Positions 3,816 through 21,786 of a DNA stretch of 64,000 bases are shown here, in pieces. The notes below the pieces were generated by a model. That model had not been told where the DNA came from, made no database searches, and was given only the letters and a program-made list of their open reading frames with translations. How positions within the stretch are numbered: the first letter of the stretch is position 1; each line of letters starts with the position of its first letter. The position numbers and the translations under genes are program-made. The stretch comes from Syntrophaceae bacterium (GTDB lineage: Bacteria > Desulfobacterota > BSN033 > UBA1163): NCBI GenBank assembly GCA_013388635.1, contig JACAEX010000029.1, positions 1 through 64,000 on the forward strand, read 5' to 3'.

Positions 3816-5711
3816 TTAAGCCAACCTGCTCTGTTTCAAAGCCTCTTCGATCTCTTTTAAAATTAAAGGATCGTCGATGGTGGAAGGAACGGTGTAACTT
3901 TCCCCATCTGCAATCTTTCTCATCGTGCCCCTCAGGATTTTCCCAGAGCGAGTTTTAGGCAGACGTGCCACGACCACAACTTCCTTAAAACTGGCAACGG
4001 CTCCAATCTGGTCCCTGACCATCTGAACAAGCTCCTTCACAATCTCGCCATCATTCCGATGGACATGGGATTTCAGAACCACAAAACCCAAAGGCAATTG
4101 CCCCTTAAATTCATCTTTGCGTCCGACCACTGCACATTCGGCTACGTCGGGATGTTTGGCAATGACCTCCTCCATGGCCCCGGTGGAGAGCCGATGTCCA
4201 GCCACATTGATCACGTCATCCACCCGGCCCATGATGAAAATATACCCATCTCTGTCGATATGGCCTCCATCTCCGGTAAAATAAAACCCTGGAAACATAT
4301 CGAGGTAGGAGGTCTTAAATTTCTGATCATCCTGCCACAGGGTCATCAGTGTGCCCGGAGGAAGAGGAAGTTTGATGACCACGATCCCCTCTTGTTCAGG
4401 CGGAAGAGCCTTGCCGTTGCTGTCCAAGATCTTGACTTCATATCCCGGCATCGGTTTGGTTGGCGAACCGGCCTTGATGGGAAGGGGGTCCAGACCCATA
4501 CAATTTCCAGCAATGGCCCATCCTGTCTCGGTTTGCCACCAGTGATCCACGACAGGTCTCTTCAACAGATCACTGGCCCAGTAATAGGTATCAGGGTCTA
4601 ACCTCTCTCCGGCGAGGAAGAGGTATTTGAAATGAGAGAGGTCATATCTCTTTATGAATTCTCCGTAAGGGTCCTCCTTCTTGATGGCCCTGATGGCAGT
4701 GGGCGCTGTAAAGAGAACTTTCACCTTATGGTCCGAGATCACTCTCCAAAACGCACCTGCATCAGGCGTCCCCACAGGCTTTCCTTCGTAAATTAAGGTG
4801 GTACATCTGTGGAGGAGGGGACCATAGACGATGTAAGAATGGCCGACCACCCAACCCACATCAGAGGCAGCCCAGAAAACATCTCCGGGTTCTACTCCGT
4901 AGAGATATTTCATGGTCCATTTTAAAGCAACGGCATGACCGCCGTTGTCGCGGACGACACCTTTGGGAAGCCCGGTGGTTCCCGAGGTATAAAGAATATA
5001 AAGGGGGTCGGTTGAGGAAACCGGTACACAATCCACGGCTGAGGCATGAGCCATCTCCTTCTCCCAATCGAAGTCTCTTCCGGGAAGTAAAGTCCCCTGA
5101 AATTGCTCTCTCTGGTAGATGATGCATCTCTCGGGTTTATGTCTCGAAATCTCTATGGCTTTATCTAAGAGGGGCTTATACCCGATCACCTTTTTCCCCT
5201 CTATTCCGCAGGAGGCAGAGACGACCAGTTTTGGTTTTGCGTCATCGATTCGGATAGCCAACTCATTCGGAGCAAACCCCCCGAAGACAACCGAGTGAAT
5301 CGCGCCAATTCGCGCACAGGCAAGCATAGCCACAACAGCCTCTGGAATCATGGGCATATAGATGATGACCCGATCTCCTTTTCGCACGCCAAAAGAGCTT
5401 AGTAGACCTGCAAACCTGGAAACGTTTTCCTGGAGTTCCTTGTAGGTGATTTTTCTAATCTGATTCGTCACAGGGCTGTCGTAAATTATGGCCGCCTGAT
5501 CTCCCCTGCCCATAAGGACATGATAGTCAACCGCATTGTAGCAGGTGTTTAACTCACCTCCTGTAAACCATCGGTAAAAAGGCTTTTGGGAAGCATCAAG
5601 AATCTTTTGGTATGGTTTATACCATTGAATTTCCTTGGCTGCCCTGCCCCAGAAATTCTCCGGACTATGAATAGATTCTTCATAAACCTTCAGATATTCG
5701 TTCCTCATCAT
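3816..5711 (-). CDS. prpE: Propionyl-CoA synthetase (AMP-forming)
   Basis: This 631-residue ACS-type adenylating enzyme activates propionate (or acetate) to the CoA ester using ATP. The adenylate motif YTSGTTGLPKG is at about residues 241-251, and the C-terminal PKTRSGKILRG carries the conserved catalytic and acetylatable Lys. The N-terminal NTCYNAVD block and C-terminal STIDDP block resemble PrpE more than Acs, hence the symbol. Two ATGs occur in tandem; the second (5708) is better spaced from GGGAGG. It has its own promoter and palindromic site upstream. Propionyl-CoA would feed the methylmalonyl-CoA cluster at 26-31 kb. Confidence 0.88.
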   Translation of the reverse strand: MMRNEYLKVYEESIHSPENFWGRAAKEIQWYKPYQKILDASQKPFYRWFTGGELNTCYNAVDYHVLMGRGDQAAIIYDSPVTNQIRKITYKELQENVSRFAGLLSSFGVRKGDRVIIYMPMIPEAVVAMLACARIGAIHSVVFGGFAPNELAIRIDDAKPKLVVSASCGIEGKKVIGYKPLLDKAIEISRHKPERCIIYQREQFQGTLLPGRDFDWEKEMAHASAVDCVPVSSTDPLYILYTSGTTGLPKGVVRDNGGHAVALKWTMKYLYGVEPGDVFWAASDVGWVVGHSYIVYGPLLHRCTTLIYEGKPVGTPDAGAFWRVISDHKVKVLFTAPTAIRAIKKEDPYGEFIKRYDLSHFKYLFLAGERLDPDTYYWASDLLKRPVVDHWWQTETGWAIAGNCMGLDPLPIKAGSPTKPMPGYEVKILDSNGKALPPEQEGIVVIKLPLPPGTLMTLWQDDQKFKTSYLDMFPGFYFTGDGGHIDRDGYIFIMGRVDDVINVAGHRLSTGAMEEVIAKHPDVAECAVVGRKDEFKGQLPLGFVVLKSHVHRNDGEIVKELVQMVRDQIGAVASFKEVVVVARLPKTRSGKILRGTMRKIADGESYTVPSTIDDPLILKEIEEALKQSRLA

Positions 5712-5942: not shown

Positions 5943-6806
5943 TTACACCGGAATCCCGATGATATTGAGTCGAATTCTATAAACGGAGGTCCTGGCTGTG
6001 ATATAGAGCGTTTTCCAGTCTTTGTCACCCCAACATAAGTTTGCAGGAAGTTCAGGGATCGGAATAATCCCGATCCTTCTTCCATCGGGGTTGAACACCC
6101 AGATCCCTCCTTTGCCCGTGACATAAACATTCCCCTCTGAATCCACTTTCAGGCCATCCGGCGCCAGGGGCTCTCCGGAGATCTCTGCAAAAATGCGGCC
6201 ATTTGTTGTCTTTCCATTATCTTTTACATCGAATACGCGAATGTGATTCATCTCGGTATCTGCAATATAGAGCAAGGATTCATCTGGAGAAAAGGCTAAC
6301 CCATTGGGCACAGAATCATCGATCAGAAGGCTGAGATGATCTCCATCGGGAGCCAACCGATAAACCCCATAAAAAGGTAGTTCCTGTTCTTCAAAAGTGC
6401 CGAACACCGGATTTAAACCGTAGGGGGGGTCAGTGAAATATATACTGCCGTCAGATTTTACGACGACATCGTTAGGGCTATTCAGTCTTTTCCCGTTATA
6501 ATGGGAGGCCACCGTCACGACTTTGCCGTCTTCCTCCGTTCGAGAAACCCGACGATTGGCATGCTCGCAGGCAATAAGCCTTCCTTTTTTGTCTATCGTT
6601 AAACCATTTGATTTACCACTTGGGGCACGAAATTCTGAGATACCATTCTCCGGCGTCCATTTGACGATTCGATTCCCAGGAATATCGCTAAACAATAAAT
6701 ATCCGCCTTTCGCATTCCAGACAGGTCCCTCTGTAAAATGGAATCCTGTTGCAAGTCTTTCGGCTCTGCTCCCCTCGGGGACGATATGCTTAAGTAAAGA
6801 ATTCAT
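5943..6806 (-). CDS. SMP-30/gluconolactonase-family lactonase
   Basis: The 287-residue protein is a six-bladed beta-propeller of the SMP-30/Gnl/LRE family. The three metal-ligand motifs are visible: FTEGPVW (Glu about 26), PNGLAFS (Asn) and APDGLKVD (Asp). Members hydrolyse sugar or other lactones with a divalent metal. No signal peptide is present, so it should be cytoplasmic. It is the last gene of the long minus-strand cluster, 65 bp after the MaoC-type gene, so the substrate may be a lactone intermediate of that pathway. Confidence 0.85.
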   Translation of the reverse strand: MNSLLKHIVPEGSRAERLATGFHFTEGPVWNAKGGYLLFSDIPGNRIVKWTPENGISEFRAPSGKSNGLTIDKKGRLIACEHANRRVSRTEEDGKVVTVASHYNGKRLNSPNDVVVKSDGSIYFTDPPYGLNPVFGTFEEQELPFYGVYRLAPDGDHLSLLIDDSVPNGLAFSPDESLLYIADTEMNHIRVFDVKDNGKTTNGRIFAEISGEPLAPDGLKVDSEGNVYVTGKGGIWVFNPDGRRIGIIPIPELPANLCWGDKDWKTLYITARTSVYRIRLNIIGIPV

Positions 6807-6871: not shown

Positions 6872-7318
6872 TTACGCCTTTTTCAAACCCTTCAGAGGAA
6901 GTTCTACGATGGCCTTTCCTGGAACACAATTAATATTATTCTGATTTTTTATCCAGAGTTCGAGCTCCACATAACCCTTTCCCTCTTGAATATATTTACT
7001 TATAATTTTGCCACCGCAGGCAAGGATATCACCAGGTGTCATGAAGCTGCGAAATTGAATCGACAGTTTGCGCAGCTCACCTCTTTCTCCTGCCCAGTCA
7101 CTTAAGAGTTGAACATAGTAGTCTCCAGCCATATTCCCTGGTGCGACGACATTGGGAAGTCCGCGGCGCTGAGTAGCAAAGGGATAATCAAAGTGAATTC
7201 TGTCCATGAGCCAGACCGTTGATAAATACATGAGTATATTCACCGTCGTCACTTGTTTCTCTAATACTGGAATCTCCTGACCTTCGACAACATCCTCATA
7301 AAAAATCTGGTTATTCAT
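6872..7318 (-). CDS. MaoC-like hydratase subunit (C-terminal-type hot-dog)
   Basis: This is a 148-residue single hot-dog domain of the MaoC dehydratase family. I start it at the ATG at 7318 (MNNQIF), which has an AAAGGAG upstream. The longer frame to 7348 would overlap the preceding gene. It lies 4 bp behind another hot-dog gene; such small pairs form heterodimeric 2-enoyl-CoA hydratases. The family's catalytic Asp/His pair is not obvious by eye in this protein, so it may be the non-catalytic partner. Substrate is unknown. Confidence 0.8.
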   Translation of the reverse strand: MNNQIFYEDVVEGQEIPVLEKQVTTVNILMYLSTVWLMDRIHFDYPFATQRRGLPNVVAPGNMAGDYYVQLLSDWAGERGELRKLSIQFRSFMTPGDILACGGKIISKYIQEGKGYVELELWIKNQNNINCVPGKAIVELPLKGLKKA

Positions 7319-7322
7319 ACAC

Positions 7323-7850
7323 TTATGACTCCTTTCTCGGTGTGGCAATCATCGTTACCCGGTGCTTAGCCAGGGTTTCTCCTTTTTGGTTCTTATAGGT
7401 AAACAAAGAGGTGACAAAAATCATTTTGCCGCTCCTCCCATCTTTCTCGCTCATATCGACTATGTTCCCTGTCACCGTCACTTGGTCTCCGACGTAAACA
7501 GGCTTAAAAAACTCAAGTTCCTCTCCGCCACGCACCCAGCCTAATTCCCAAGTATTGGGGAATTCAGGAACACCCACAAAAGTGGCCAAACCATCCTCTC
7601 CCAATTCCTTAACGCTTTTCTCCCCACCGGGGACACCGATCGCCCAAGACACATAGCCAAGGGGGGCGGTCAAACCACCATATTTCCCTTTCTTGGCGGC
7701 ATTTTCATCAAAATATATTGGGTTGAGATCGTCGATAGCCAGTGCATATCGCCGAATATCCCTTGCCAATACCGTTTCTCCGGTATAGGATGGCGTTTCT
7801 TGTCCAATATATTTTCTCCAACCAAGTTTGTCCAATAACGATTCGCCCAT
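7323..7850 (-). CDS. MaoC-like hydratase subunit (FAS1_DH / MaoC_dehydrat_N type)
   Basis: The 175-residue protein belongs to the N-terminal MaoC dehydratase family. The motif DDLNPIYFDENAAKKGKYGG (the (D/N)xNPIH-like segment followed by the conserved gate loop) and the APLGYVSWA stretch are visible. It is expected to pair with the MaoC-like product of the next gene as an enoyl-CoA hydratase. The start has GGAGGAATT directly upstream. It sits between the COG1058-like gene and the second hydratase gene in a tightly packed operon. Confidence 0.85.
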   Translation of the reverse strand: MGESLLDKLGWRKYIGQETPSYTGETVLARDIRRYALAIDDLNPIYFDENAAKKGKYGGLTAPLGYVSWAIGVPGGEKSVKELGEDGLATFVGVPEFPNTWELGWVRGGEELEFFKPVYVGDQVTVTGNIVDMSEKDGRSGKMIFVTSLFTYKNQKGETLAKHRVTMIATPRKES

Positions 7851-7879: not shown

Positions 7880-8767
7880 TCAGCTACTTATCTTTTCTTT
7901 TAACCTGTTTTTTAAACTGGCTGCTATGTTCTCCGCCAATTGGTCTTTGCTCAAATGAGAGGCAAGGCCCTTGACCAGGGAATCGAGACCTATTTGCACT
8001 TCATCATTGGGGCCAGGGAGGGCTACGATGAGAGTCTGAGAAATTTTTCCTATGGCTATCCGGACACTGTCTTTGTGTTGATGCCGGCCCACACCTAATT
8101 GATATTTAAAGACAGGTAAGACAACTGCCTCCGGGTCAACCATCAATACCGCTTCGATCGTCCGGTCTTTATCTTCTGCCCCGACCCCGCCGGTCGTGAT
8201 CACCAGACCGTAGCCTTCATCGACCGCCTGCCTCAAATGCGCGGCGATCAGCACCTCATCATCCTTAAGCGTTGGTCCTACCTTTACCGAATAACCTTCT
8301 TCTTTCAAACGCCGGCTGATAGTCGGGGTGTTGGTATCCATCACCTGACCGTTGGCCACCTCGGTCCCGGAAGAAAAAACCACTGCTGTTTTTAATAACC
8401 TAACTTGTATTTCTTTGGCCATTTCCTCAGACTTCTTTAGAGCCTTTTCACCTTCTGCGTAATCCAGGGCAATCCAACTCAGCAGCCCCTGAGAACCAAC
8501 GGAGGTCTTCTCACTAATGGTCACTCCGGGATGGGCCGACAACCGTCGCAACAATTGCTCCTCTTTCCCTATAATGTCATGGGCATTGAGGCCCGACCTT
8601 AAAATATCAACCACCAGGTTTTCACCCTGAACATCGGTGACCAGAAGCTCATTACGCTCCAGGTTAAGGGTCTCCGCCACTATAGTGGCAATCTCGCCTA
8701 AATCGACATTCTCTAAAGATATCCCTTTGATCCACAGTTCGGTTTTTTTAAATAAATCATATTCCAT
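7880..8767 (-). CDS. MoCF/COG1058 (CinA-N-like) domain protein with unique N-terminus
   Basis: Of 295 residues, the C-terminal 170 match the molybdopterin-binding/CinA-N fold: SSGTEVANGQVMDTN (about 132-146) corresponds to the CinA GDELLxG...DTN motif, and TTGGVGAEDKD (191-201) is the signature loop. COG1058 domains of CinA are known to act on nucleotide pyrophosphates; MogA/MoeA relatives adenylate molybdopterin. The first 120 residues match nothing I know. It lies 20 bp behind the QPRTase-like gene, which itself follows the LarA-like gene. I infer a role in nucleotide-cofactor chemistry. The start has AGGGAG at an unusually long 13 bases. Confidence 0.75.
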   Translation of the reverse strand: MEYDLFKKTELWIKGISLENVDLGEIATIVAETLNLERNELLVTDVQGENLVVDILRSGLNAHDIIGKEEQLLRRLSAHPGVTISEKTSVGSQGLLSWIALDYAEGEKALKKSEEMAKEIQVRLLKTAVVFSSGTEVANGQVMDTNTPTISRRLKEEGYSVKVGPTLKDDEVLIAAHLRQAVDEGYGLVITTGGVGAEDKDRTIEAVLMVDPEAVVLPVFKYQLGVGRHQHKDSVRIAIGKISQTLIVALPGPNDEVQIGLDSLVKGLASHLSKDQLAENIAASLKNRLKEKISS

Positions 8768-8787
8768 TAATTCAAAAAATCTCCCTT

Positions 8788-9603
8788 TTAGGCCTCTTCG
8801 GAGATGATTTCCATGCGCATCTCCAAAATAGGTGCATCCACAATCTGACGTCCAATGTCTATCATATCCAGATCCAACGGCCTTAATGTCTTTAGCGCCT
8901 CCAGGTTTAGTCCCCCTCCGAAGGCGATAGCGACTTTCCCTCGAAGGCCCTTTCGTCTAAGCCTCTCGGATACAGTGGTGATGTCTTCCGGGTGACCGGT
9001 ATCTATGAAGATAATATCTGCCCCGGCCTCGGCCGCCTCACAGGCTTCAGAGCCGATATCCTTATAGCGCCCTTTGATCTGCACCACCTTTGAGCAAGGG
9101 GCAAGGTGGGAAACGGCTTGAAGACTTTGTGTTATTCCCCCCAACAGCTCAACATAGTTTTTATCCAAATAGGCAAAGGGAGGAGAGGCGATCCGGGATA
9201 ATGCTCCTCCAGTATGAATAGCCTCACGGATCGTCTCCTTCAATGAAGGAGGCATCTTCTTCCATGCGCCACAAACAACCCTTGGTCTTCCCCCGGTTTC
9301 TTGAACAAATTTGTGGGCGCTTGTGGCGATGCCAGATGGTTTAGCCATCAGGCCAATTAACAGTTCTTCGGCCATCACAATCTGTTTGGGAGTTCCAGAA
9401 AACCTGATGATTTCATCCCCTTTTTTAAGCTCACTGCCTTCCTTGACAACCCTCAGTATGGATAATCCTAACTTCCCTGCCTCCTCTTTTGCTGAAGCGA
9501 TTCCTGCAATAATGCCATCCTCATCGACGACGATAGACGCGGTCACTTTCTTCCGCTTAACACTTTTTAATATCTCCTCCCTGACGTCTAATGCTTCACT
9601 CAT
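8788..9603 (-). CDS. Divergent quinolinate/nicotinate phosphoribosyltransferase-family protein
   Basis: The 271-residue protein has the NadC/ModD fold. AEELLIGLMAKPSGIAT (about 78-94) is the family's AExxLNxLxxxSGIAT helix, and IAFGGGLNLEAL is the phosphate-binding end of the barrel. The quinolinate-binding segment RKTxPG is replaced by WKKMPPS (about 114-120), and the NHR motif reads LSRI. So it is unlikely to be an ordinary NadC. ModD-type proteins of the same fold occur with molybdate systems. Here it sits between a LarA-like and a COG1058-like gene, suggesting a nicotinate-like base or nucleotide as substrate. This is inference. Confidence 0.75.
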   Translation of the reverse strand: MSEALDVREEILKSVKRKKVTASIVVDEDGIIAGIASAKEEAGKLGLSILRVVKEGSELKKGDEIIRFSGTPKQIVMAEELLIGLMAKPSGIATSAHKFVQETGGRPRVVCGAWKKMPPSLKETIREAIHTGGALSRIASPPFAYLDKNYVELLGGITQSLQAVSHLAPCSKVVQIKGRYKDIGSEACEAAEAGADIIFIDTGHPEDITTVSERLRRKGLRGKVAIAFGGGLNLEALKTLRPLDLDMIDIGRQIVDAPILEMRMEIISEEA

Positions 9604-9621
9604 TATTCTTATCTTTGGCTC

Positions 9622-11034
9622 TTACATCATCATCTGTGCAGGATCAAATCCCCTTTGCCGAAGCCACTTGGGCATCAGCTCCTGGTCAACCCTTCGGCTG
9701 ACTTCAGGAGCCTTCTTCATCAAAAATTCAGCCAATGAAGGACTGCAGGTCATCGCTCCGAAGCATCCGTCGAAGACATAGACCTTATCGGTATTGGCGA
9801 TTCTATAGGCGAAATTCATGGCCGTTTCCAGATTTTCAGCCGTTACTGTATATTTCATAAAGTCATGATTCATCGGGTCGGACCCCAGCAATTCAGCAAA
9901 ATCGTTGCCCACCACGATGGTCGGAATATGTGTGGCCAGTTCCAGTTGGGGTACGCCCAACCAGGCATGGTTGAGGACCAGGGCCTTGATGGCCGGGTTG
10001 ACAGACTTTGCCTTGGGAGCACCCGGCTGTTTTTCATAAAGTCCGTAGCCAAGACTCACCGGCAGAATATCCAAATCAAAAAGATCCAATTCGGCTTCGG
10101 TCAGATTGCCGAAGGTCATCCCGCCACCGATCATATAGCGCGGTTCACCCGTTGCATCCAAAACGGCGATACATTCCTTGATCTCTTCACACAGTACGCG
10201 CAGCTTGCCGTAGGACTTGAAAGCCAGCATCATCAGCCTTCGGTCCACGGCCGCCATATCATTGTCGGCATCCACCCCGGTGATCCCTTCCGGTGAGGTC
10301 AGCAGAAAACAGCCAAACGTAAACTTCTTCTGGACGAAGGGAGAATTGAAAATGACCTTGGGGATAAAATTACTGCTCCTCGGACCGAAATTCATATGCT
10401 GCACGCTCCTGGTTTCCAATCGGGCATAAGACATGGCAAAAGGTTTGATCGCCCGGTTGATCATTCGGTGCATGTCCAGTTCCCTTAATTCTCCATGATG
10501 GGCATGGATGATCCAGTCCGCGTCATATATCCGAGCCACGCCGTAAAGGGTTCCGATTTCCGTTTCAATCGGCACTCCCGGGTCAATCGCTCTGACCGGG
10601 GCGGTCTGGCCCTTAAAATATTCATCCAGTTTATATTCCTGAACAATCTCCAGCGGCTCTCTGATTCTAAATCCTGTTGCCACGCGCAGACGAATATGAT
10701 GGCAACCAGTTTTTGCTTCGACGAAATCCTTGATCGTCTTAAGCATTTCGGCGTAGGCCTGGCCGCCCATGATCTGAAAACCGTATTGGGAAGACAGGAG
10801 ATTGACCGTATCTCCTGGCTTGATCATACTCATATCCACTTTTTTTAAGGCCTCCTCCGTTGCTTTCCGGATCACCGACAGATCCCCGCCTTCCAGGAAT
10901 ATTTCGCGCGGGACATCAGGGAAAAGATCTCTGATGGGCAGGGCCTCCATGCCCGGAAGCTCGGCGGCCCTCTTCTTGATTCCCGGGCCATATTGCGATT
11001 TTCTAATATAGGATGGCTTAGGCCTGTTCAACAT
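9622..11034 (-). CDS. Unrecognised 470-residue protein, possibly a divergent LarA-superfamily member
   Basis: I do not recognise this protein with certainty. By eye, residues 73-140 resemble LarA (nickel-pincer racemase) residues 64-130. A strand-helix unit ends in LRVATGFRIREP where LarA has LVATGFHRPS, followed by a similar helix (LEIVQEYKLDEYF). LarA's catalytic His is Arg here (about 123), and the GGxK lysine loop is not visible, so chemistry must differ. There is no signal peptide or membrane segment. The start has a strong GGAGGAGGTG. It heads a trio with the QPRTase-like and COG1058-like genes (gaps of 18 and 20 bp), a constant-looking module. Confidence 0.6.
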   Translation of the reverse strand: MLNRPKPSYIRKSQYGPGIKKRAAELPGMEALPIRDLFPDVPREIFLEGGDLSVIRKATEEALKKVDMSMIKPGDTVNLLSSQYGFQIMGGQAYAEMLKTIKDFVEAKTGCHHIRLRVATGFRIREPLEIVQEYKLDEYFKGQTAPVRAIDPGVPIETEIGTLYGVARIYDADWIIHAHHGELRELDMHRMINRAIKPFAMSYARLETRSVQHMNFGPRSSNFIPKVIFNSPFVQKKFTFGCFLLTSPEGITGVDADNDMAAVDRRLMMLAFKSYGKLRVLCEEIKECIAVLDATGEPRYMIGGGMTFGNLTEAELDLFDLDILPVSLGYGLYEKQPGAPKAKSVNPAIKALVLNHAWLGVPQLELATHIPTIVVGNDFAELLGSDPMNHDFMKYTVTAENLETAMNFAYRIANTDKVYVFDGCFGAMTCSPSLAEFLMKKAPEVSRRVDQELMPKWLRQRGFDPAQMMM

Positions 11035-11070: not shown

Positions 11071-13173
11071 TTAAAATTTTCTAAACACGTCCAGATCTTC
11101 CTTGAGAAAATGGCCAGGATATTTCTTAATGGTCTCTTCAGGGACCTCCCAGCAGGTCTGGGTTGAGTCATACCAACGGTATCCTTTGGCCGGCGGCTTG
11201 ACCTCGATTCCATGGGCTTTCAATAAGCGAAGACTGGTCATTTGGCAATAGATGGTGCATCCCGAACGTGCTCCGGTCATGAGGGCGATTTCTTCAAGCG
11301 TTTTGGCCCCCTTCAGAACGGCTGCAGCCCCCTCCCTGACTCTTACTCCCGCGCATAAACAGAGCCACTGATGCGGATGGAGGTGGGCTTTAAGGCATAA
11401 TTCGCGCAACTGGTTTTGATCGACCTCTGCCGGATCGACTCCCAATCTGAGTGGCACAGGACGCAGGACATGCTTGATCGCGTCCACCGGACATACATCT
11501 CGGCAATTTTGGCAAGCCAGGCATTTTTCACTGGTCACGACAGCCTTTTGGCCGCAAGAAAGGCAGCGGCTGGCTTCTTCAATGGCCTCTTCTTGTGAAA
11601 TCGTGGCTTCCATCTCCCTAAAAGTGCGTACCCGTTCAGGCACGGGCAAAATGGGTGGTCGGACCCGTGGTTTCTTAGGATGATAGTCAAGAATCCAGGC
11701 GGCCAATTCAGGCAGTCCCTTCTTGCTTATATCAACTTCTTTGACAGACCCGAGGGTTAGATATTGATGAATGGAATTGGCTGCGGTACGCCCATCAGCG
11801 ATGGCCTGAATCACCGATTGGGGGCCCCGCATGACATCCCCTCCCACAAAAATATTGGGGATAGATGACTGCAGGGTTAGGGGATTTGCCTCCAGTGTCC
11901 CTCGCCTGGAAGGGACTAATTTTTTCAATCCTGGATCCTTCCCGAGAAAACTGAGATCAGCAGCCTGACCAATGGCCACAATGGCTGTATCGGCCTTCAA
12001 AACAGTCAGATCTCTCGCATCATATTGGGGATCAAAGGCTCCGTTTTCGTTGAACACGGAGGTGCACCGTTTAAATTCGATCGCGGCCAACCTGCCGTCC
12101 TTCCCCAAGAACCTATTAGGGCCTAAACCGTTGATGATCCTAACACCCTCTTCTAATGCCTGCTGGATTTCATCTTTCCAGGCAGGCATTTCATCTCGTT
12201 TCTCCAGACAGACCAGCGAAACCTCCTCTGCACCTTGGCGAATCGCAGTCAAAGCCACCTCAATCTCTTTTTTTAACGACAAAAAACGCAACGATTCCTC
12301 TGCACCGTGGCGAATGGCAGTCAACGCTACATCAATCGCCACATTGCCGCCTCCGATGACGACCACTCTCTTCCCAAGGGAAACAGGGTATTTGAGGGAT
12401 ACAGCTTCAAGAAAATCAACCCCCTTCAGCACCCCTTCCAAGTCTTCGTTCTCTATGTTCAGACGTCTGCTCAGGTGAAGCCCAGTGGCTAAGAAAAAGG
12501 CTTTATACCCATCTGCCTTCATACTCTTTAAGCTAATATCTTTGCCAAAAGTAACTCCTGTTTTGACCTCCACTCCCATTTCCTTTATGCCCTTAATTTC
12601 CTGGTCCAAGATCTTTTTGGGAAGGCGATATTCCGGGATGCCATAACGGAGCATCCCCCCCAATTGGGGCTTGGCCTCAAAAATAGTAACTCCATAGCCT
12701 CGCAGCCGGAGATAGTAGGCAGCGGAAAGACCTGCTGGTCCTCCTCCAATGATAGCCACTTTGTGTCCATTTTCCGGTTCCATCTGGGGCTTTAAAGGAA
12801 TTCCGTGAAGCTGGTCGTAATCGGCTACAAATCGTTTTAAAGGATTAATAGCAATCGGTTGATCGACTAAGTTTCGACGGCAGGCATCTTCGCAAAAATG
12901 AGGACAAACCCGCCCGACAGATAAAGGAAGGGGGTTTTTCTCTTTGATCAACTTGAGGGCTTCCCTGAATTCTCCCCGGTTAATATGGGCCACATACCCC
13001 TGAATATCAATTCCAGCCGGGCAAGCCAGGCGGCAGGGGGTAATACTTTCTTCATCTGGAGATTCCAATTGGACCACATTAATGGCCATGGTTGGGCATA
13101 CGTTTTCACACGATCGGCAACCTACACATTTTTCCCTGTCCACCTGAGCCAAATATTTGATTTCTACCACCAT
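11071..13173 (-). CDS. GltD-like NAD(P)-dependent flavoprotein fused to ferredoxin and BFD-like domains
   Basis: This 700-residue electron-transfer protein has five parts in order: one [4Fe-4S] motif (Cys 16, 19, 22, 26), an Fer4_20 domain with four more Cys (CRLACPAG, CPHFCEDAC), and a glutamate-synthase-beta-like FAD/NAD(P) module with two Rossmann motifs (IIGGGPAGLSAAYYL and VVIGGGNVAIDVA). A [4Fe-4S] segment (CLACQNCRDVCP) and a C-terminal bacterioferritin-ferredoxin-like [2Fe-2S] domain (CLCAG...GCTIYC) follow. The second Rossmann helix contains a 72-bp in-frame tandem duplication. Start at 13173 is chosen for its GAGGAG; an ATG 18 bases upstream overlaps that site. It probably passes electrons between NAD(P)H and ferredoxin for the adjacent pathway. 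Confidence 0.85.
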   Translation of the reverse strand: MVVEIKYLAQVDREKCVGCRSCENVCPTMAINVVQLESPDEESITPCRLACPAGIDIQGYVAHINRGEFREALKLIKEKNPLPLSVGRVCPHFCEDACRRNLVDQPIAINPLKRFVADYDQLHGIPLKPQMEPENGHKVAIIGGGPAGLSAAYYLRLRGYGVTIFEAKPQLGGMLRYGIPEYRLPKKILDQEIKGIKEMGVEVKTGVTFGKDISLKSMKADGYKAFFLATGLHLSRRLNIENEDLEGVLKGVDFLEAVSLKYPVSLGKRVVVIGGGNVAIDVALTAIRHGAEESLRFLSLKKEIEVALTAIRQGAEEVSLVCLEKRDEMPAWKDEIQQALEEGVRIINGLGPNRFLGKDGRLAAIEFKRCTSVFNENGAFDPQYDARDLTVLKADTAIVAIGQAADLSFLGKDPGLKKLVPSRRGTLEANPLTLQSSIPNIFVGGDVMRGPQSVIQAIADGRTAANSIHQYLTLGSVKEVDISKKGLPELAAWILDYHPKKPRVRPPILPVPERVRTFREMEATISQEEAIEEASRCLSCGQKAVVTSEKCLACQNCRDVCPVDAIKHVLRPVPLRLGVDPAEVDQNQLRELCLKAHLHPHQWLCLCAGVRVREGAAAVLKGAKTLEEIALMTGARSGCTIYCQMTSLRLLKAHGIEVKPPAKGYRWYDSTQTCWEVPEETIKKYPGHFLKEDLDVFRKF
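12225..12368. repeat. 72-bp in-frame tandem duplication inside the GltD-like gene
   Basis: The stretch starting CCTCTGCACC(T/G)TGGCGAAT at 12225 recurs at 12297, a shift of 72 bases (24 codons), with about 85% identity over the first 40 bases. In protein terms VALTAIRHGAEE is followed 24 residues later by VALTAIRQGAEE. Related flavoproteins have this helix once. The frame stays open. Confidence 0.85.
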
Positions 13174-13231
13174 CTTTGATGCTCCTCTCATTTAAAAATG
13201 TAAGCGCCATACCCCTCGTTCATCAATCAAT

Positions 13232-13353: not shown

Positions 13354-14604
13354 CTACTTCTTGGGAATACGAAATGTCGTAGTCGGCATCCAATCGCTAA
13401 TCGGCTCTACAAACCCCTTCCGGACAACCCAATATCTCACGTGTTTTGGTCCGATATGATCGTCTGGCACATACGAAATGGGTTTCGTTAATCCCATACA
13501 ATCAAAATTCCTTATCCGATCGAGGCCATATTTCTTTAAGGCTTCTCCGTTGAGTTTCTCTGGAGTCACCTCATCTAAAGCGAGGCGGATGCCCTCTGCA
13601 ATGATCATCCCCGACAGGATTCCGTTGACATACATATCATTCGGCCTCTGACCAGGATGGTTCTTCTCCCAAAGCTCCCTGGCGAGTTTCAGTCCAGGCG
13701 AGGCTCCAAGCTTTGGATCTTTTGACATGGGTTCATAGAAATACTCACCTTGGTACCCTTCCGTTAATTCAGGCCCCCCTAAGGCAATGACATCGCCCAG
13801 CGTAGCCGCTGCACACTGTGTTAACGGGATATTTAAGTTCATCGCTTTTGCTGAATTAAGCACGACGACGGATCCCGGGGCAGATGATGAAACAAAAATC
13901 TGCTTACATCCAGCATTTTTTAGACGCAGCAACTGTGGGCTCGCATCGGTCGTTCCCTTGGGAATCGTCTCTGTGAAAAACTTGATCCCCTGTTCCTTGA
14001 CAAAAGAATCCATATCCCACAAACTCAGCGGTACCCACGGCTCATCCGTTGCTATGGTGCCAAGAACAAGGGTACCCCCTGGTTTTCCTGCCTTCTCCCA
14101 ATCACGCTTTAACCAAACGATCCAGCTGCGAGCCATATTGGCCACACCAGAATGATAATTTCCGTAGGCCCAATCCGACCACATACTTGCGATCCCCTGA
14201 GAACCCGTTACCAGGGGAATCTTAGCCTGTTCATAATCCATCAACAAAGCGTCCGAATGGGCAGCGCCGCAATGGGTATGAACAATCATTCCCTGCTCCC
14301 GAAGTCTGGCAAATCCGTCCTTCGCTTTTGTGGCAACATATTGGGAATCGTATGAGAGATATTTTATCTTGACCCTTCCCTTCTTCCCTTCGATTCCCCC
14401 CTTCTTTTCATTGAGATAATATAGATAGTCCTTTGATCCCGATTGGCACATCGTATGTGTCCCACTCGTGGGCCCTGTCATCGCACTGATATTACCAACG
14501 ACGACCTCTGCAACAGGCTTCTGAGCCCAGGTAATTGAATTAGGTAACGCCACTATGATTCCAGCTACCACGCAGACAACGAGCGAAAACATTTTGGTTT
14601 TCAT
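13354..14604 (-). CDS. ABC transporter periplasmic binding protein (branched-chain amino acid/aromatic acid type)
   Basis: The 416-residue protein has a signal peptide (MKTKMFSLVVCVVAGIIVAL, cleavage near AQ at 27) and a type-I periplasmic binding fold of the Peripla_BP_6/LivK group. The ATG at 14604 is chosen because it begins the signal peptide and has AAAGGAGG; the frame is open 40 codons further upstream. It would capture the substrate for the LivH/LivM permeases encoded just upstream in the same operon. The neighbouring acyl-CoA synthetase suggests a carboxylic acid rather than an amino acid as ligand (inference). Confidence 0.92.
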   Translation of the reverse strand: MKTKMFSLVVCVVAGIIVALPNSITWAQKPVAEVVVGNISAMTGPTSGTHTMCQSGSKDYLYYLNEKKGGIEGKKGRVKIKYLSYDSQYVATKAKDGFARLREQGMIVHTHCGAAHSDALLMDYEQAKIPLVTGSQGIASMWSDWAYGNYHSGVANMARSWIVWLKRDWEKAGKPGGTLVLGTIATDEPWVPLSLWDMDSFVKEQGIKFFTETIPKGTTDASPQLLRLKNAGCKQIFVSSSAPGSVVVLNSAKAMNLNIPLTQCAAATLGDVIALGGPELTEGYQGEYFYEPMSKDPKLGASPGLKLARELWEKNHPGQRPNDMYVNGILSGMIIAEGIRLALDEVTPEKLNGEALKKYGLDRIRNFDCMGLTKPISYVPDDHIGPKHVRYWVVRKGFVEPISDWMPTTTFRIPKK

Positions 14605-14683
14605 AAAGCCTCCTTTCGGTTTCATTTTCCATCTCAATTGCTGACCCCTAATCTCCTCCTGCGTCACCACCTCCCTCCCAAAC

Positions 14684-15754
14684 TCAATAACCAAAGGGCC
14701 ATAACCTATAGTAGGCCTTAACAAGGTTCCAACGGTGAGCCAGCCCTCTTGGTTCGAAGATTAAAAAGAGTATCGCCACCCCCCCGATAATAACCAACAG
14801 GAGACCGCTGCCCGCTCCAATTGGCAGAAAGGGAAGCTTTCCCTCCACCATAGGCCCGATGACGAAGATTAACTCCTTCAATGCCGTGATGAATATAACC
14901 CCGAAGATGGTACCCTCGATACTGCCCAGTCCCCCCACGATGACCATGACGACATACCATATGGAATCCTGGAGGGTAAAAGATTCAAGATGTGCCCACA
15001 TCATATAATGAACGAGCAGAGAACCGGCCACCCCTGCGTAGAATGTGCAGATCATAAACGCAAGGAGCTTATAGCGAAAAATATCGATGCCCATGGCTTC
15101 CGCAGCGATATCGTTGTCCCTGATGGCAACAAAAGCTCTCCCCGGTCCCGTTCTCATCATATTCTTTGCAAAAAAAGTCATCATGACGGTGAAAAACATC
15201 GCGACATAGTAAAATTTCTTCGGTGTGTTAAAGACCAGAGTCCCTATGGTTATGGGTCCGACACTAAACCCGGCTGCCGTCAGCGGGATATAAAAGAGGG
15301 CGATCCACGTAAGAATAATCTGGGCGCCCAATGTGGTCAAAGCCAAGTACAAGCCTTTCAACCGAACCGAGGGGATGCCGAAAATAGCTCCGATCACAGC
15401 TGAGGTAATTCCCGCGGGAATCACACACATCCAAAAGGGCCAGCCGAGATGAATGTTAAGCAAACCCGATGTAAAGCCCCCTACCATTACAAAAGCAGAT
15501 TGACCAATGTTGAGCTGCCCACAATATCCCGTTAAGACATTGAGCCCAAGACAAATGATAATGGTAATCCCGACCCCGATCAGTAGCCTCAGGAGATAAG
15601 GACTATTAAAGAAAGGAATCTGGGGGATCGCGAAAAGAAAGATCAAGGAGACAATGGACAACACCCATTGTGTCTTTGTCTTGACAATTCGCATATCTTT
15701 TCTGTAGCTATCAGAATAAATCCCGCTGGGTGGATAAAACGATGTGTGGGCCAT
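14684..15754 (-). CDS. livM: ABC transporter permease, LivM type
   Basis: A 356-residue integral membrane protein with about ten hydrophobic segments and the LivM hallmark segment LNVLTGYCGQLNIGQSAFVM near residues 68-87. It forms the channel with LivH. A hydrophilic 30-residue N-terminal extension precedes the first membrane helix, so a later start is possible. The gene begins 4 bp after livH stops and is followed by the binding-protein gene. Confidence 0.92.
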   Translation of the reverse strand: MAHTSFYPPSGIYSDSYRKDMRIVKTKTQWVLSIVSLIFLFAIPQIPFFNSPYLLRLLIGVGITIIICLGLNVLTGYCGQLNIGQSAFVMVGGFTSGLLNIHLGWPFWMCVIPAGITSAVIGAIFGIPSVRLKGLYLALTTLGAQIILTWIALFYIPLTAAGFSVGPITIGTLVFNTPKKFYYVAMFFTVMMTFFAKNMMRTGPGRAFVAIRDNDIAAEAMGIDIFRYKLLAFMICTFYAGVAGSLLVHYMMWAHLESFTLQDSIWYVVMVIVGGLGSIEGTIFGVIFITALKELIFVIGPMVEGKLPFLPIGAGSGLLLVIIGGVAILFLIFEPRGLAHRWNLVKAYYRLWPFGY

Positions 15755-15758
15755 TTTG

Positions 15759-16631
15759 CTAAACCCTTTCTATCCTTTCCAGACCAAAGAATCCGTAGGG
15801 TCTGAATAACATGACGACGATGAGGACGATATAGCTGGCGGGTACCCCCGCAGCCTTTCCTACATACCCAGAGACAATGCTTTCAATCAATCCGATCAGT
15901 AACCCGCCCAGAACAGCCCCCTCAGGGGACTCCAGTCCGCCGATGAAGGCTGCCGGTATCGCTAACAGCCCGATGTGGCTCAGGCCAAGCTGGAATCCAA
16001 GGGTCCCTCCCAAAAGGATTCCGCCTAAGGTTGCAGCGACGCCAGCGATGCCCCAGCATATCGTGAGGATCCTTTTCACGCTTATCCCCATGCTCTGCAT
16101 AATTTCATGTCCCTCCGCCACCCCTCTCATCGAAAGTCCAAGCCGGGTATAGCGGAAAAAGAAAATGAGCACCATCATCACCACGATGGCAAGCCCGAAC
16201 GCAAAAAGGCTTTCCGTCGTCAAGACGGTTTTGCCCAGCTTTAGTGCCCCCTTAGGAAAGATCGTGATTTGCTCGAGCGGATAGGTCCCCCAGAATAAGG
16301 AGGCCACCCCTTCCAGGACCAAGGAGAGGAATATGGTGACCGTGATCATGGAGAGCAGGGGCTGGCCGATCAGAGGGCGTAACGTGATACGCTCAATAAG
16401 AATGCCCATAAGAAAGGCGCAAGGCAGGGTGAGCAATAAAGATAAGAACAGATCGAGTCTCAATCCACCTCTGAAGCTCCAGAAGATGTACCCCCCCAGC
16501 AGCAACATATACCCTTGCGAGAAGTTGAGTACCGAAGAGGACTTATAGATCAGAACAAATCCAATAGCCACAAGGCCATAGACCGCACCGTTCATCAGGC
16601 CTGCTGCTACTATTTTGCCAAAAAATTCCAT
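15759..16631 (-). CDS. livH: ABC transporter permease, LivH type
   Basis: A 290-residue permease with about eight membrane helices. The LivH signatures GLVAIGFVLIYKSSSVLNFS (about 20-39) and the cytoplasmic EAA-like loop AxxQGxxxxxxxGI (here in the EIMQSMGISVKRIL segment) are visible. It pairs with LivM. A good GGGAGG precedes the ATG. It sits between livF and livM in the operon. Confidence 0.93.
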   Translation of the reverse strand: MEFFGKIVAAGLMNGAVYGLVAIGFVLIYKSSSVLNFSQGYMLLLGGYIFWSFRGGLRLDLFLSLLLTLPCAFLMGILIERITLRPLIGQPLLSMITVTIFLSLVLEGVASLFWGTYPLEQITIFPKGALKLGKTVLTTESLFAFGLAIVVMMVLIFFFRYTRLGLSMRGVAEGHEIMQSMGISVKRILTICWGIAGVAATLGGILLGGTLGFQLGLSHIGLLAIPAAFIGGLESPEGAVLGGLLIGLIESIVSGYVGKAAGVPASYIVLIVVMLFRPYGFFGLERIERV

Positions 16632-16676
16632 AAGCTTGCCTCCCCAACTATTAGGTTCTCAATGCTTTGAAATTTT

Positions 16677-17465
16677 TTATAGCCACCTTTTTCTCCTTTT
16701 GTAATGCTTGACTTGCCGGTAGCTCTTCTTCTCTCCAAGCTTGCTGAGTCCCAGATAGAATTCCTTAATGTCTTCATTATCCGCAAGCTTCGAAGAGGGC
16801 CCATCCAGAACTACCCTGCCGTTTTCCATCACATAAGAGTATTCTGTGATGGAAAGCGCTGCCCTTGCATTTTGTTCAACGATGAGCACACTCGTCTTCT
16901 CTTCGGCATTAAACCGGGTTACGATGTCAAAGATTTCATCCACAATCAATGGGGCGAGTCCTAAGGACGGTTCGTCGAGCAACATAATCTTCGGATGCGC
17001 CATCATGGCGCGTCCCATGACCAGCATCTGTTGTTCTCCGCCTGACAGATAGCCACTGGTGGAATGGCGGAGGCTCTTTAATTTGGGAAAATAATCATAA
17101 ACCATATCGAGATCCTTTTTGATATCGCTATTCTTAACAATGTAACCTCCGAGCAACAGATTTTCCTCAACGTTGAGATGCCCCAGGACCTGTCTCCCTT
17201 CCATGACCTGGATAATGCCCCTCTTTGCAATCTGCTCCGGATCCATTCCATCTATGCGGCTGCCATCGTATTCAATACTTCCAGCGGTGACCTCCCCGAG
17301 CTCGGTATGAAGCAGTCCTGAAATCGCCTTAAGCGTGGTCGTCTTACCGGCACCGTTGCTTCCCAAAAGGGCAACGATAGCTCCGTCTCTCACCTCGAGC
17401 GAAACCCCACGCAACACAAGGATGACACCGACATACTTTACCTCAACGTTATTCAGCTTTAGCAC
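16677..17465 (-). CDS. livF: ABC transporter ATP-binding protein, LivF type
   Basis: This 262-residue ATPase has Walker A GSNGAGKT (35-42), signature YLSGGEQQ, Walker B IMLLDEPSLGL and the switch His in VLIVEQNA-type context. It starts with GTG and GAGAGG upstream. The C-terminal 30 residues are basic and extend slightly beyond the usual LivF. It is separated from its usual neighbour livG by an acyl-CoA synthetase gene. Confidence 0.93.
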   Translation of the reverse strand: MLKLNNVEVKYVGVILVLRGVSLEVRDGAIVALLGSNGAGKTTTLKAISGLLHTELGEVTAGSIEYDGSRIDGMDPEQIAKRGIIQVMEGRQVLGHLNVEENLLLGGYIVKNSDIKKDLDMVYDYFPKLKSLRHSTSGYLSGGEQQMLVMGRAMMAHPKIMLLDEPSLGLAPLIVDEIFDIVTRFNAEEKTSVLIVEQNARAALSITEYSYVMENGRVVLDGPSSKLADNEDIKEFYLGLSKLGEKKSYRQVKHYKRRKRWL

Positions 17466-17547: not shown

Positions 17548-19461
17548 TCAGTTCATCGCCTCCCTTTCCTCATAGACCGATCTTATTTTTAGATTTGTCT
17601 CCACCACCCCTTTTCTACCATCTCTATATTTGACTTCGGTGACAACGGGCATCTCCCTCTTATTCCCATATATGGCTTCGATCAGTTCCTGATAGCGATC
17701 CTGTAAAAAGGCCCTCCTCAGCTTTCTCGTCCTTGTCAACTCCCCTTCATCCGCGTCAAACTCCTTGTGCAGCAGGACGAACTTTCTAACTTTCGACCGC
17801 TCTGGAAGTGTATTGTTCACCCTTTGTAAATCTCTTCTTAGAAGATCTCCTACCTCTTTCTTCTGAGAGAGATCCACAAAGGTAGTGTAAGGGATCTGGT
17901 TAGCCTCAGCCCATTTGCCGATGCTCTCAAAATCTATATTGATGATCACAGACAGGTAATCCCTATTCTTTCCGCCCACCACCATGACGTCTCGTATGAA
18001 CCGACTGAATTTCAATTTGCCCTCGATATAAGCCGGAGCATACTTATGCCCGTTGCTCAGTTCATCTAAGTTTTCAATTCGATCTAAGTAAAAAAGATGG
18101 TTCTTCTCATTGATATATCCTGAATCCCCTGTATGAAACCAACCGTCGGTGATCACCTGACTGGTCTTCTCTGGGTTCTTATAATAACCTGAAAACACAC
18201 TGCTCCCTTTGATCAGGATCTCCTGGCCATCCGATATCTTAATCTCAACCCCCGGACATACCTTCCCTACGCTGTCGTTATCAATATCATCCTGGGGATG
18301 CATGCTCACGACACCTGCCTCGGTGCTCCCATAGATTTGGATAAGATTAATTCCCATCGCCTGAAAAAATCTAAAAAAATCTGGACTTAAAAAGGCGCTC
18401 CCGGTAACAGGATATCTGGTTTTGACCAATCCAAGTTTATCCCTGAGAGGTCTGAATACAAAGATATCACCTATATGGTAAAGGACTTTCCAGATGGGGT
18501 GAACCTTCTTTTTGGCAGACCGTAAATCTACCACTTTGTAACCTACTGGGAGAAAAAGATTATAGAAGAATCTTTTCAAAAAACCGGCATCGTTTATCCG
18601 GATCTGTGTCATAGAAGAAAGGCTCTGCCATTGTCGGGGAGTGATGAGCATAAACCGAGGAGATATTTCTCGATAATCCTGCATCAAGGTCTCAGGTTCT
18701 TCAGGGAAATTGATGACCACCCCACAGAGGTAACTATATCCAGCAAACCATTGATGAAACACAGAGGCGGATGCCAATGTGGTGATCACATCTTCCCCCT
18801 GATCAAGCGGAGCAAACTCATGCATCCTTTTTGCAGAGGTGATGATGGCATCATGGGTGATCATGGCACCTTTGGGCAAACCCGTGGTCCCTGAGGTATA
18901 AGACATCTGTGCGACTTCGCTCCCTTTCCCCCTTGCGATCAATTCTTCAAAAAGCTCAGGGTGTTTGTCCGCATGCAGGCTCCCAATCTTTTTCAGATCC
19001 TCATAACTCATTAAGATTGGATCTTCATATTTTCTCATGCCTTTAGGATCCCAATAAATGATCTTTTCCACCTTGGGAATATCGTTTTTAATCTCCAACA
19101 GTTTATCAACCTGTTCTTGATCCTCTGCGATGACAAATTTTGAATCAGAATGATTAATGATGTAGGCAATTTCAGACGGGATGGAATCGCTCCATAATGC
19201 TACCAGTATCCCTCCCGCCGACTGGATAGCGGCCTCAGCCCAAAATCCCTCCGGCTCGTCATCTCCGATAAGTGAAACTTTGTCGCCTGCCTTCAATCCT
19301 AAACTCACCAACCCCAAGCACAATCGCTTCACCTGCTGGTAGCAATCTTCCCATGTGTAACTCTGCCAGATGCCGAAATCCTTTCTTCGCAAGGCAACTC
19401 TATCTCTCCATAATTTGGCGTTACGGATTAAATACTTAGGATAAGTGTCCAGCTCTGACAA
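17548..19461 (-). CDS. Long-chain-type acyl-CoA synthetase (AMP-forming) within the ABC operon
   Basis: This adenylating enzyme of about 637 residues has the motif MSYTSGTTGLPKG near residue 190 and the GxTExG-like YGSTEAGV. The FAA1/FACS-like domain layout is complete, including the C-terminal subdomain. It converts a carboxylic acid to its CoA thioester. GGAGG lies 7 bases before a TTG at 19461 but only 1 base before a GTG at 19467, so I prefer the TTG. Its location between livF and livG suggests vectorial activation of the imported acid. Fatty or arylalkanoic acids are both possible. Confidence 0.88.
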   Translation of the reverse strand: MSELDTYPKYLIRNAKLWRDRVALRRKDFGIWQSYTWEDCYQQVKRLCLGLVSLGLKAGDKVSLIGDDEPEGFWAEAAIQSAGGILVALWSDSIPSEIAYIINHSDSKFVIAEDQEQVDKLLEIKNDIPKVEKIIYWDPKGMRKYEDPILMSYEDLKKIGSLHADKHPELFEELIARGKGSEVAQMSYTSGTTGLPKGAMITHDAIITSAKRMHEFAPLDQGEDVITTLASASVFHQWFAGYSYLCGVVINFPEEPETLMQDYREISPRFMLITPRQWQSLSSMTQIRINDAGFLKRFFYNLFLPVGYKVVDLRSAKKKVHPIWKVLYHIGDIFVFRPLRDKLGLVKTRYPVTGSAFLSPDFFRFFQAMGINLIQIYGSTEAGVVSMHPQDDIDNDSVGKVCPGVEIKISDGQEILIKGSSVFSGYYKNPEKTSQVITDGWFHTGDSGYINEKNHLFYLDRIENLDELSNGHKYAPAYIEGKLKFSRFIRDVMVVGGKNRDYLSVIINIDFESIGKWAEANQIPYTTFVDLSQKKEVGDLLRRDLQRVNNTLPERSKVRKFVLLHKEFDADEGELTRTRKLRRAFLQDRYQELIEAIYGNKREMPVVTEVKYRDGRKGVVETNLKIRSVYEEREAMN

Positions 19462-19485
19462 CTTCACACCTCCTTTTGGAATAAC

Positions 19486-20394: not shown

Positions 20395-21777
20395 CTAAGG
20401 AAGATGCATAGCACCTCCGCTTAACAACATAGCGGCTTCCCCCAGCCCCTCAGAAAGTGTGGGATGGGGATGAATGGTATGGGCCAACTCCTCCACGGTA
20501 ACCTCCATCTCCATGGCCAGTGCGGCCTCCGCAATCAGCTCCGTGGCATGGGGCCCAATCATGTGAACCCCCAAAATCTCTCCGTACTTTTTACCGGCGA
20601 CCATCTTAATCATTCCCTCTGTCTCTTCAAGCAGTGAGGCCTTGCCCACGGCATGGAAAGGGATGCGACCTACCCGCACCTCTCCCTTTTGATCCATTGC
20701 CTCCCTCTCGGTCAAACCGACACAGGCAACCTCCGGTGATGTATAAATGCAGCGTGGTACGGCAAGATAGGAAATGGAGGACCGCTGCCCCAATGCATTG
20801 CGGGCCGCACATTCTCCTTCAGCCATAGCGACATGCGCCAGCATAATGCCACCGATCACATCGCCCACAGCATAGATATTGGGAATATTGGTCCCCATCC
20901 TGTCATTCACCTTAATCCTCCCCCTCTCCGTCTCCAGCCCGATCTCCTCAATGCCCAGCTCCATATGGTGTGGCCTTCTCCCGACCGTCTGGGCGACATC
21001 AGTGGCTACAACTTCTTTTTTCCCTTCAGGAGTTGAAAAGGTGACTCTTTTGTTTCTCCCGTCCCTCTTAACTTTCTCGACCTTGGCCTGAGTAAAAATA
21101 CGAATCCCTTCTTTTGATAGGAAGCCTTCAAGGGCTCGGCTAATCTCTTCATCCTCTGTGGGGATGATCCGGTTCAACATCTCCACAATCGTAACCTGAA
21201 CTCCCATCCTGTTAAAAAACTGGCCGAGTTCAACACCAATGTATCCCCCGCCGATAATGACTAAGCTGCTGGGTAAGGATTCGATATTGAGAAGATCATC
21301 ACTTGTCAGCAGAGGGACATCCTCGCTTCCCTCAATCGAAAGTCTGGCCGGGATAGAACCCGTAGCTATGATGAATTTCTCCCCGGTCAAGACCTCTCCT
21401 GACTCCAGAATTTTTATGCGGTTTGGATCAAGAAAGGAAGCTGTCCCCTTCAACACCTTTACATTCCTGGTCTTTAACAGGCTTGTCACTCCCCCTGTTA
21501 GCCGGCCGACCACTGTCTCTTTCCGATCCAACAGTCTCTTGAAATCAGTTTCCAATTTTCCCGTATTTAAACCGAAGAGGGAGGCTCTCTTGATCTCGTT
21601 ACACATCGATGCGGAGTGAAGAAATACTTTTGTGGGGATGCATCCTCTGTTGAGGCACACCCCTCCGATCTTCTCCTTTTCAATCAGGATAACCTCTGCT
21701 CCCAGTCTTGCCGCGCGGAGAGCTGCAGGATAACCTCCAACCCCACCCCCCACTACAATGACTCGTTCCTTTACCAT
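20395..21777 (-). CDS. lpdA: Dihydrolipoamide dehydrogenase (E3)
   Basis: The 460-residue flavoprotein has the FAD-binding GGGVGGYPAA at the N-terminus, the redox disulfide in GGVCLNRGCIPTK (Cys 41 and 46), the NAD-binding GGGYIGVELG and the C-terminal HPHPTLSE with the catalytic His-Glu. It reoxidises the lipoyl arm of E2 with NAD+. The gene begins 9 bp after E2 ends, so E3 is dedicated to this complex. Confidence 0.95.
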   Translation of the reverse strand: MVKERVIVVGGGVGGYPAALRAARLGAEVILIEKEKIGGVCLNRGCIPTKVFLHSASMCNEIKRASLFGLNTGKLETDFKRLLDRKETVVGRLTGGVTSLLKTRNVKVLKGTASFLDPNRIKILESGEVLTGEKFIIATGSIPARLSIEGSEDVPLLTSDDLLNIESLPSSLVIIGGGYIGVELGQFFNRMGVQVTIVEMLNRIIPTEDEEISRALEGFLSKEGIRIFTQAKVEKVKRDGRNKRVTFSTPEGKKEVVATDVAQTVGRRPHHMELGIEEIGLETERGRIKVNDRMGTNIPNIYAVGDVIGGIMLAHVAMAEGECAARNALGQRSSISYLAVPRCIYTSPEVACVGLTEREAMDQKGEVRVGRIPFHAVGKASLLEETEGMIKMVAGKKYGEILGVHMIGPHATELIAEAALAMEMEVTVEELAHTIHPHPTLSEGLGEAAMLLSGGAMHLP

Positions 21778-21786
21778 AACGATCCC

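Follow-up and report, generated by a model that had tools for sequence, protein, structure and literature searches.

A LarA-fold protein with an iron-sulfur partner and two putative cofactor-making companions: a possible nickel-pincer-type reductase system

We analyzed a 64,000-nucleotide stretch of DNA (the window; contig JACAEX010000029.1, assembly GCA_013388635.1), which is part of one contig of the 3.4-Mb genome of a Syntrophaceae bacterium (G000), and looked into a compact set of genes on its minus strand. Three open reading frames (ORFs) separated by gaps of 18 and 20 bp encode a 470-aa LarA-like protein (positions 9622 to 11034), a 271-aa protein with a quinolinate phosphoribosyltransferase (QPRT) fold (8788 to 9603), and a 295-aa protein with a MoCF (MogA/CinA-N) domain (7880 to 8767). 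Their coordinates agree with the compact three-gene set described in an earlier reading of the sequence alone (the sequence-only reading). That reading had the trio right but overlooked a fourth gene on the same strand, directly upstream of the LarA-like gene (11071 to 13191), which encodes a 706-aa iron-sulfur (Fe-S) electron-transfer partner; it also overlooked the LarB, LarC, and LarE neighbors and the furan-catabolic context of the relatives.

Homologous loci, 52 in number, were found in Bacillota, in Desulfobacterota-type and other “deltaproteobacterial” metagenome-assembled genomes (MAGs), in one Acidobacterium, and in one spirochete, and 39 LarA-like proteins were aligned. The 470-aa window protein had no Pfam or NCBIfam match; the Lar_N profile (PF09861/COG3875) did not match it, nor did it match any of the 39 homologs beyond chance. 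Foldseek comparison of an AlphaFold2 model of the protein (pLDDT 88.6, pTM 0.91) with the PDB gave four matches with E values below 1e-3, all of them lactate or malate racemases and spanning most of the length. As judged from this predicted structure, the protein very probably has the LarA fold; the suggestion that it might fold unlike LarA was not borne out, as only LarA-family structures fell below that threshold. Two low-scoring hhalign runs placed Lys197 on LarA Lys184 and His213 on LarA His200 in identical register, and the second profile, also with a weak score, placed Arg123 on His108 and His189 near His174. Lys197 and His213 were invariant (39/39), with a 16-residue separation, the same as in LarA. 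Position 123, equivalent to His108, was Arg in 27 of the 39 proteins and His in 1, and position 189, equivalent to His174, was His in 34. By alignment, the family retains the proposed tether of the nickel-pincer nucleotide (NPN; Lys197) and the proposed nickel ligand (His213) but has only one of LarA's two acid-base histidines. The LarA likeness with Arg in place of the catalytic His, first noticed in the sequence-only reading, thus holds in both respects, with Arg123 aligned to His108 by hhalign and the LarA fold recovered by Foldseek. A LarA fold without one of the two catalytic histidines is shared with the subfamily of LarA_Bw and LarA_Sp, but there His174 is replaced by Asn (PMC12611868), whereas here His108 is replaced, mostly by Arg. 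Furthermore, the LarA_Bw/LarA_Sp type (9q2u) is detectable by sequence from ordinary LarA, and the family described here is not.

The QPRT-like protein matched PF02749 and PF01729 and scored 117 bits against the NadC model TIGR00078, below the equivalog cutoff of 198 bits (198.4); the whole family scored between 66 and 117 bits, and the window protein was also below the cutoff for ModD (TIGR01334). It shares with NadC and ModD the two-domain QPRT fold and the acidic residues on the phosphoribosyl pyrophosphate (PRPP) side (Glu186 and Asp201) but differs from them in that RKTxPG, NHR, and KDNH are replaced by WKKMPP, LSR, and DKNY, respectively, a pocket that is changed family-wide; the roles given to these positions (PRPP side and quinolinate motifs) are those of the corresponding NadC residues. 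The earlier statement that the protein lacks RKTxPG and NHR was therefore correct. A true NadC (>315 bits) was present besides the QPRT-like protein in 7 of 12 genomes, which, together with the scores below the cutoff, rules out the possibility that the trio protein is the normal housekeeping NadC. In the window genome, no NadC scored above the cutoff; the sole matches were the trio QPRT and a nicotinate-phosphoribosyltransferase-like one. This could be due to gaps in the genome, which is 95% complete, or to salvage of nicotinate.

In the MoCF-like protein, the MoCF domain (PF00994) occupies residues 130 to 266 and carries the GG-G and PGP motifs, as in MogA, MoaB, and CinA-N; the profile was above its cutoff in 27 of 27 members. 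The protein differs from MogA, MoaB, and CinA-N in having a conserved N-terminal region of about 120 aa, in occurring only with the LarA-like and QPRT-like genes, and in being fused to the QPRT-like protein at five loci. No credible Pfam family was found for the N-terminal region among the 27 homologs. Its predicted model shows a beta-alpha-beta-beta-alpha-beta-type arrangement, and Foldseek of the protein gave a match to the MoCF domain only and none for the N-terminal domain. The earlier description of a CinA-N/MoCF-fold protein with a novel N terminus is thus sound as to domain and N terminus; the architecture is not that of CinA or COG1058, as the MoCF domain is not at the start of the protein and no CinA-C domain is present.

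Next, we surveyed 395 genomes of the phylum for the LarA-like protein, the trio-type QPRT, and the trio-type MoCF protein. Each was present in 10 of them, exactly the same 10, representing seven genera among the good-quality genomes; a chance coincidence of three such gene sets is negligible even when relatedness is allowed for. Three of the 10 genomes carried two to four copies of the LarA-like gene; the QPRT and MoCF genes were single in all 10 (contig ends divide the MoCF gene of G296). One genome, G109, had four LarA-like copies, three of them on one contig, with one QPRT and one MoCF. At locus L008, the operon is syntenic with that of the window, but the QPRT gene lies on a separate contig. 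The identical distribution and the QPRT-MoCF fusions rule out chance neighbors, answer the doubt as to whether the three genes are conserved together elsewhere, and make the trio almost certainly a functional unit. Since the QPRT and MoCF genes are single and sometimes fused or unlinked, while the LarA-like gene can be multicopy, the simplest reading is that the products of these two genes make a cofactor in trans, shared among the LarA-like proteins, and that each LarA-like protein is an enzyme. A catabolic role for the QPRT-like protein, in which it would ribosylate the substrate, was dropped because some genomes that carry several LarA-like genes have one QPRT gene, located away from them.

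The Fe-S partner was characterized by Pfam and NCBIfam matches, cysteine positions, and comparison with stand-alone homologs, which have two [4Fe-4S] motifs and BFD-type cysteines, one Cys being absent in some clades. In the window protein, a GltD-type NAD(P)H/FAD module is inserted between the two ferredoxin-type [4Fe-4S] motifs (Cys 22-32 and 557-567); the protein also has cysteines at 611, 613, 645, and 649 and a BFD-like [2Fe-2S] region. A similar GltD fusion is present at L026. The Fe-S gene lies directly upstream of the LarA-like gene at every locus except L015 and L035, which are cut by contig edges; further loci that had been flagged as lacking it proved to have over-extended ORF starts or a split gene. 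In two clades (L030, positions 980 to 1534, and L014, positions 432 to 1091), the first [4Fe-4S] motif lacks one Cys (CNGDKRCEKLC-type), so that a [3Fe-4S] cluster or a different ligand is possible at this site.

The dedicated Fe-S partner and its GltD fusions point to electron transfer from NAD(P)H via Fe-S clusters to the LarA-like protein and hence to a net redox reaction, which we consider probable. It is rather improbable that the LarA-like protein is instead an NPN-dependent isomerase (a racemase, an epimerase, or another hidden-redox enzyme) that catalyzes no net reduction and relies on the Fe-S protein only for upkeep or activation of its cofactor. Every characterized member of the LarA family is a racemase or an epimerase (PMC7583248, PMC11770544), and His189 is kept in most homologs, as an isomerase would have it; however, the second acid-base His is absent, each LarA-like gene at loci uncut by contig ends has its own Fe-S partner, in two cases fused to a GltD-type oxidoreductase, and the conversion of 2-furoate to 2-oxopent-4-enoate, considered below, requires two electrons.

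A link to NPN is suggested by the neighborhood of the set. LarB, LarC, or LarE genes lie inside the cluster region at 12 loci (including L017), and there is a NicO nickel transporter at L038 and a NicO-type transporter at L055. In the window genome, LarB, LarC, and LarE are on other contigs. LarC was found in 26 of 30 trio genomes; LarB is present in 337 of the 395 genomes of the phylum and is thus uninformative. Together with the invariant Lys and His, these data make it reasonably likely that the cofactor is NPN or a derivative. The sequence-only reading had proposed that the trio builds and uses a pyridine-nucleotide-derived cofactor; the fold, the co-occurrence, and the non-NadC character of the QPRT make this the best-supported reading, with the cofactor itself as a prediction. 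We also weighed whether the QPRT-like protein and associated genes might merely supply extra NAD or nicotinate mononucleotide for ordinary LarB-dependent NPN synthesis. The retained QPRT fold and PRPP-side residues, a NadD-like gene in the L017 operon, and the window genome without a NadC above the cutoff would suit such a role, but it is made very improbable by the true NadC found alongside in more than half of the genomes compared, by the quinolinate motifs altered throughout, and by the contrast between the wide occurrence of LarB and that of the trio, in only 10 genomes.

A catabolic context is seen in the Bacillota clade. Its operons encode a 2-oxopent-4-enoate-hydratase-like protein (below the equivalog cutoff), an acetylating acetaldehyde dehydrogenase and a 4-hydroxy-2-oxovalerate aldolase (both above cutoff), and a BenE-family symporter (slightly below the NCBIfam cutoff and above Pfam’s). 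At five loci where no BenE was seen (L021, L033, L055, L056, and L057), the cluster contains a UbiD enzyme that is 54 to 58% identical, over its full length, to PtHmfF (6H6V), the next PDB family being far lower; UbiX accompanies it at four of the five, and a MatC-type dicarboxylate carrier is present at L021 and L057. HmfF interconverts 2,5-furandicarboxylate (FDCA) and 2-furoate (PMC8988006, PMC6644310). An aldehyde dehydrogenase and an Fe-alcohol dehydrogenase at L055, and an aldehyde:ferredoxin oxidoreductase and an Fe-alcohol dehydrogenase at L026, are as expected for the oxidation of furfural or hydroxymethylfurfural. Moreover, 2-furoate (C5H4O3) plus 2H equals 2-hydroxypenta-2,4-dienoate (C5H6O3), the substrate of the hydratase, so that a single two-electron reductive ring opening would close the pathway. 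On this evidence, we lean toward 2-furoate as the substrate in the Bacillota clade. As in the Hmf pathway of aerobic furan degraders (HmfF/HmfG; PMC6644310), an HmfF/HmfG-type FDCA decarboxylase and aldehyde and alcohol dehydrogenases occur here, adjoining the LarA-like genes of the relatives; in contrast to that pathway, the relatives appear to open the ring of 2-furoate reductively and to continue through a lower pathway of the meta-cleavage type, rather than to hydroxylate furoyl-CoA. An M24 creatinase/prolidase-like peptidase is also kept in 19 clusters (e.g., L017, 13480 to 14586, and L023, 12788 to 13894).

That the LarA-like protein is a LarA-fold oxidoreductase with part of its own cofactor supply encoded alongside is, in our judgment, slightly favored. 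Such an enzyme would use Lys197 and His213 to bind a pyridinium nucleotide of the nickel-pincer type, either NPN or one of its derivatives; the Fe-S partner would hand the enzyme electrons, in the window from NAD(P)H by way of FAD and the Fe-S clusters, and the enzyme would pass them as hydride to its substrate, a carboxylic acid. The QPRT-like and MoCF-like proteins, acting in trans, would build or modify the pyridinium nucleotide through phosphoribosyl transfer and nucleotidyl or pyrophosphate chemistry, one copy of each serving several LarA-like enzymes. In Bacillota, hydride could be delivered to C5 of 2-furoate, with C-O cleavage yielding 2-hydroxypenta-2,4-dienoate. From this product, pyruvate and acetyl-CoA would be formed by the hydratase, the aldolase, and the acylating acetaldehyde dehydrogenase of the cluster; acetaldehyde oxidation would give back two electrons, making the sequence redox neutral overall. 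Our full proposal, which is tentative and falls short of an even chance, is a new nickel-pincer-type enzyme class: an Fe-S-driven reductase of the LarA fold that dearomatizes and opens the ring of 2-furoate in one two-electron step, that in sister clades such as that of the window acts on other unsaturated or aromatic acids, and that uses a modified pyridinium-nucleotide cofactor needing the QPRT-like and MoCF-like proteins.

Several observations weigh against the oxidoreductase model. Scores of hhalign against the two LarA profiles were weak (probability of about 1%, E value of 0.05), and because of this and the lack of a PF09861 match, homology to LarA rests on the fold, the residue spacing, and the neighbors. 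LarA Asp72/Arg75 are, like His108, not retained in the family. LarC was not found in 4 of the 30 trio genomes, namely, the complete genome of Breznakiella homolactica, Oscillibacter sp. 1-3, Aneurinibacillus terranovensis, and one 85%-complete MAG, and LarB was not found in 2 of the 10 trio genomes, including the 96%-complete G334. No furan genes were found in the window operon. In addition, the assignment of QPRT and MoCF to cofactor synthesis, which we hold to be fairly likely, derives from their folds and distribution. The LarC and LarB gaps would mean that NPN is obtained otherwise or that the cofactor is a relative of NPN made with the help of QPRT and MoCF. They would also fit a LarA-fold enzyme without NPN, which would depend on QPRT and MoCF for some other ribotide cofactor and whose LarB, LarC, and LarE companions would merely reflect ordinary LarA racemases of the same organisms. 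Consistent with this alternative, QPRT and MoCF are always present, whereas ordinary LarA enzymes need neither, and COG3875 groups without NPN-binding residues have been set aside before (Desguin 2020, PMC7583248). The invariance of the NPN-site Lys and His, the clustering of LarB, LarC, or LarE with the set at 12 loci, and the two nickel transporters speak against it, and we regard it as unlikely. Relative to the superfamily of NPN-dependent 2-hydroxy-acid racemases and epimerases (PF09861, COG3875; 5huq, 6d6z), then, the LarA-like proteins share the overall fold, the Lys184 and His200 equivalents, and, in relatives, nearby LarB/C/E genes, but they differ in that they have no Pfam match, do not conserve His108 and Asp72/Arg75, have an Fe-S partner of their own, always occur with the QPRT-like and MoCF-like proteins, and stand in a catabolic rather than a hydroxy-acid context.

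The window LarA-like protein belongs to a sister clade with those of L008 to L010 (4 rows, support 100/100). Downstream of the trio on the same strand are genes for a MaoC/HadA-type hydratase-like protein (7323 to 7850; Pfam/NCBIfam) and a HadB-type hydratase-like protein (6872 to 7348; a weak NCBIfam match), both of which also adjoin the set at L008 to L010, for an SMP-30/gluconolactonase-like protein (5943 to 6806; Pfam), present at L008 too, and for a propionate/acetate--CoA ligase-like protein (3816 to 5711; NCBIfam). Beyond the Fe-S gene, again on the minus strand, lie branched-chain-amino-acid-type (Liv) ABC transporter genes (13354 to 17465), which were named by reading the sequence (the LivK- and LivH-like proteins had no NCBIfam match at 1e-30) and whose order matches L008; an acyl-CoA ligase (17548 to 19467; NCBIfam), syntenic at L008; and a 2-oxoacid dehydrogenase complex (20395 to 25032; NCBIfam) consisting of E3 (20395 to 21777, also at L008), E2 (21787 to 22968), E1-beta (23081 to 24079), and E1-alpha (24076 to 25032). 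This same-strand run, with its dehydrogenase, Liv-type transporter, acyl-CoA ligases, two MaoC-type hydratases, and lactonase-like protein, would fit a LarA-like enzyme that yields a 2-oxo acid, followed by oxidative decarboxylation. The enzyme of the window probably acts on a different acid, unsaturated or (hetero)aromatic, and furoate is doubtful here.

Elsewhere in the window, an ordinary Lar_N protein (169 bits) is encoded on the plus strand at 56711 to 58027, and the genome has six proteins over the Lar_N cutoff. Beside it on the opposite strand are 2-oxoacid:ferredoxin oxidoreductase-like, GltD-like, and GntR-like genes, with TRAP-transporter-like genes farther along; the window may therefore encode a second hydroxy-acid system that depends on NPN.

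In the open-access literature on LarA-like genes, whether in the catabolism of aromatics or furans or in combination with QPRT/CinA, we found no description of this gene set, and none of an oxygen-free furan route of this kind. If the proposal is true, nickel-pincer chemistry would come to include net reductions, carried out by a LarA-fold enzyme that is supplied with electrons by an Fe-S protein; the ring opening would be a new anaerobic reaction, and the cofactor would represent a new branch. The work also predicts what two proteins do that would be named NadC-like and molybdopterin-binding by automatic annotation. Furthermore, HmfF, the furfural-type dehydrogenases, and the 2-oxopent-4-enoate pathway suggest a testable route by which furans, as they arise from lignocellulose, heated food, and furan-based plastics, could be broken down without oxygen, a candidate route in gut bacteria (Oscillibacter and Breznakiella) and in sulfate-reducing bacteria.

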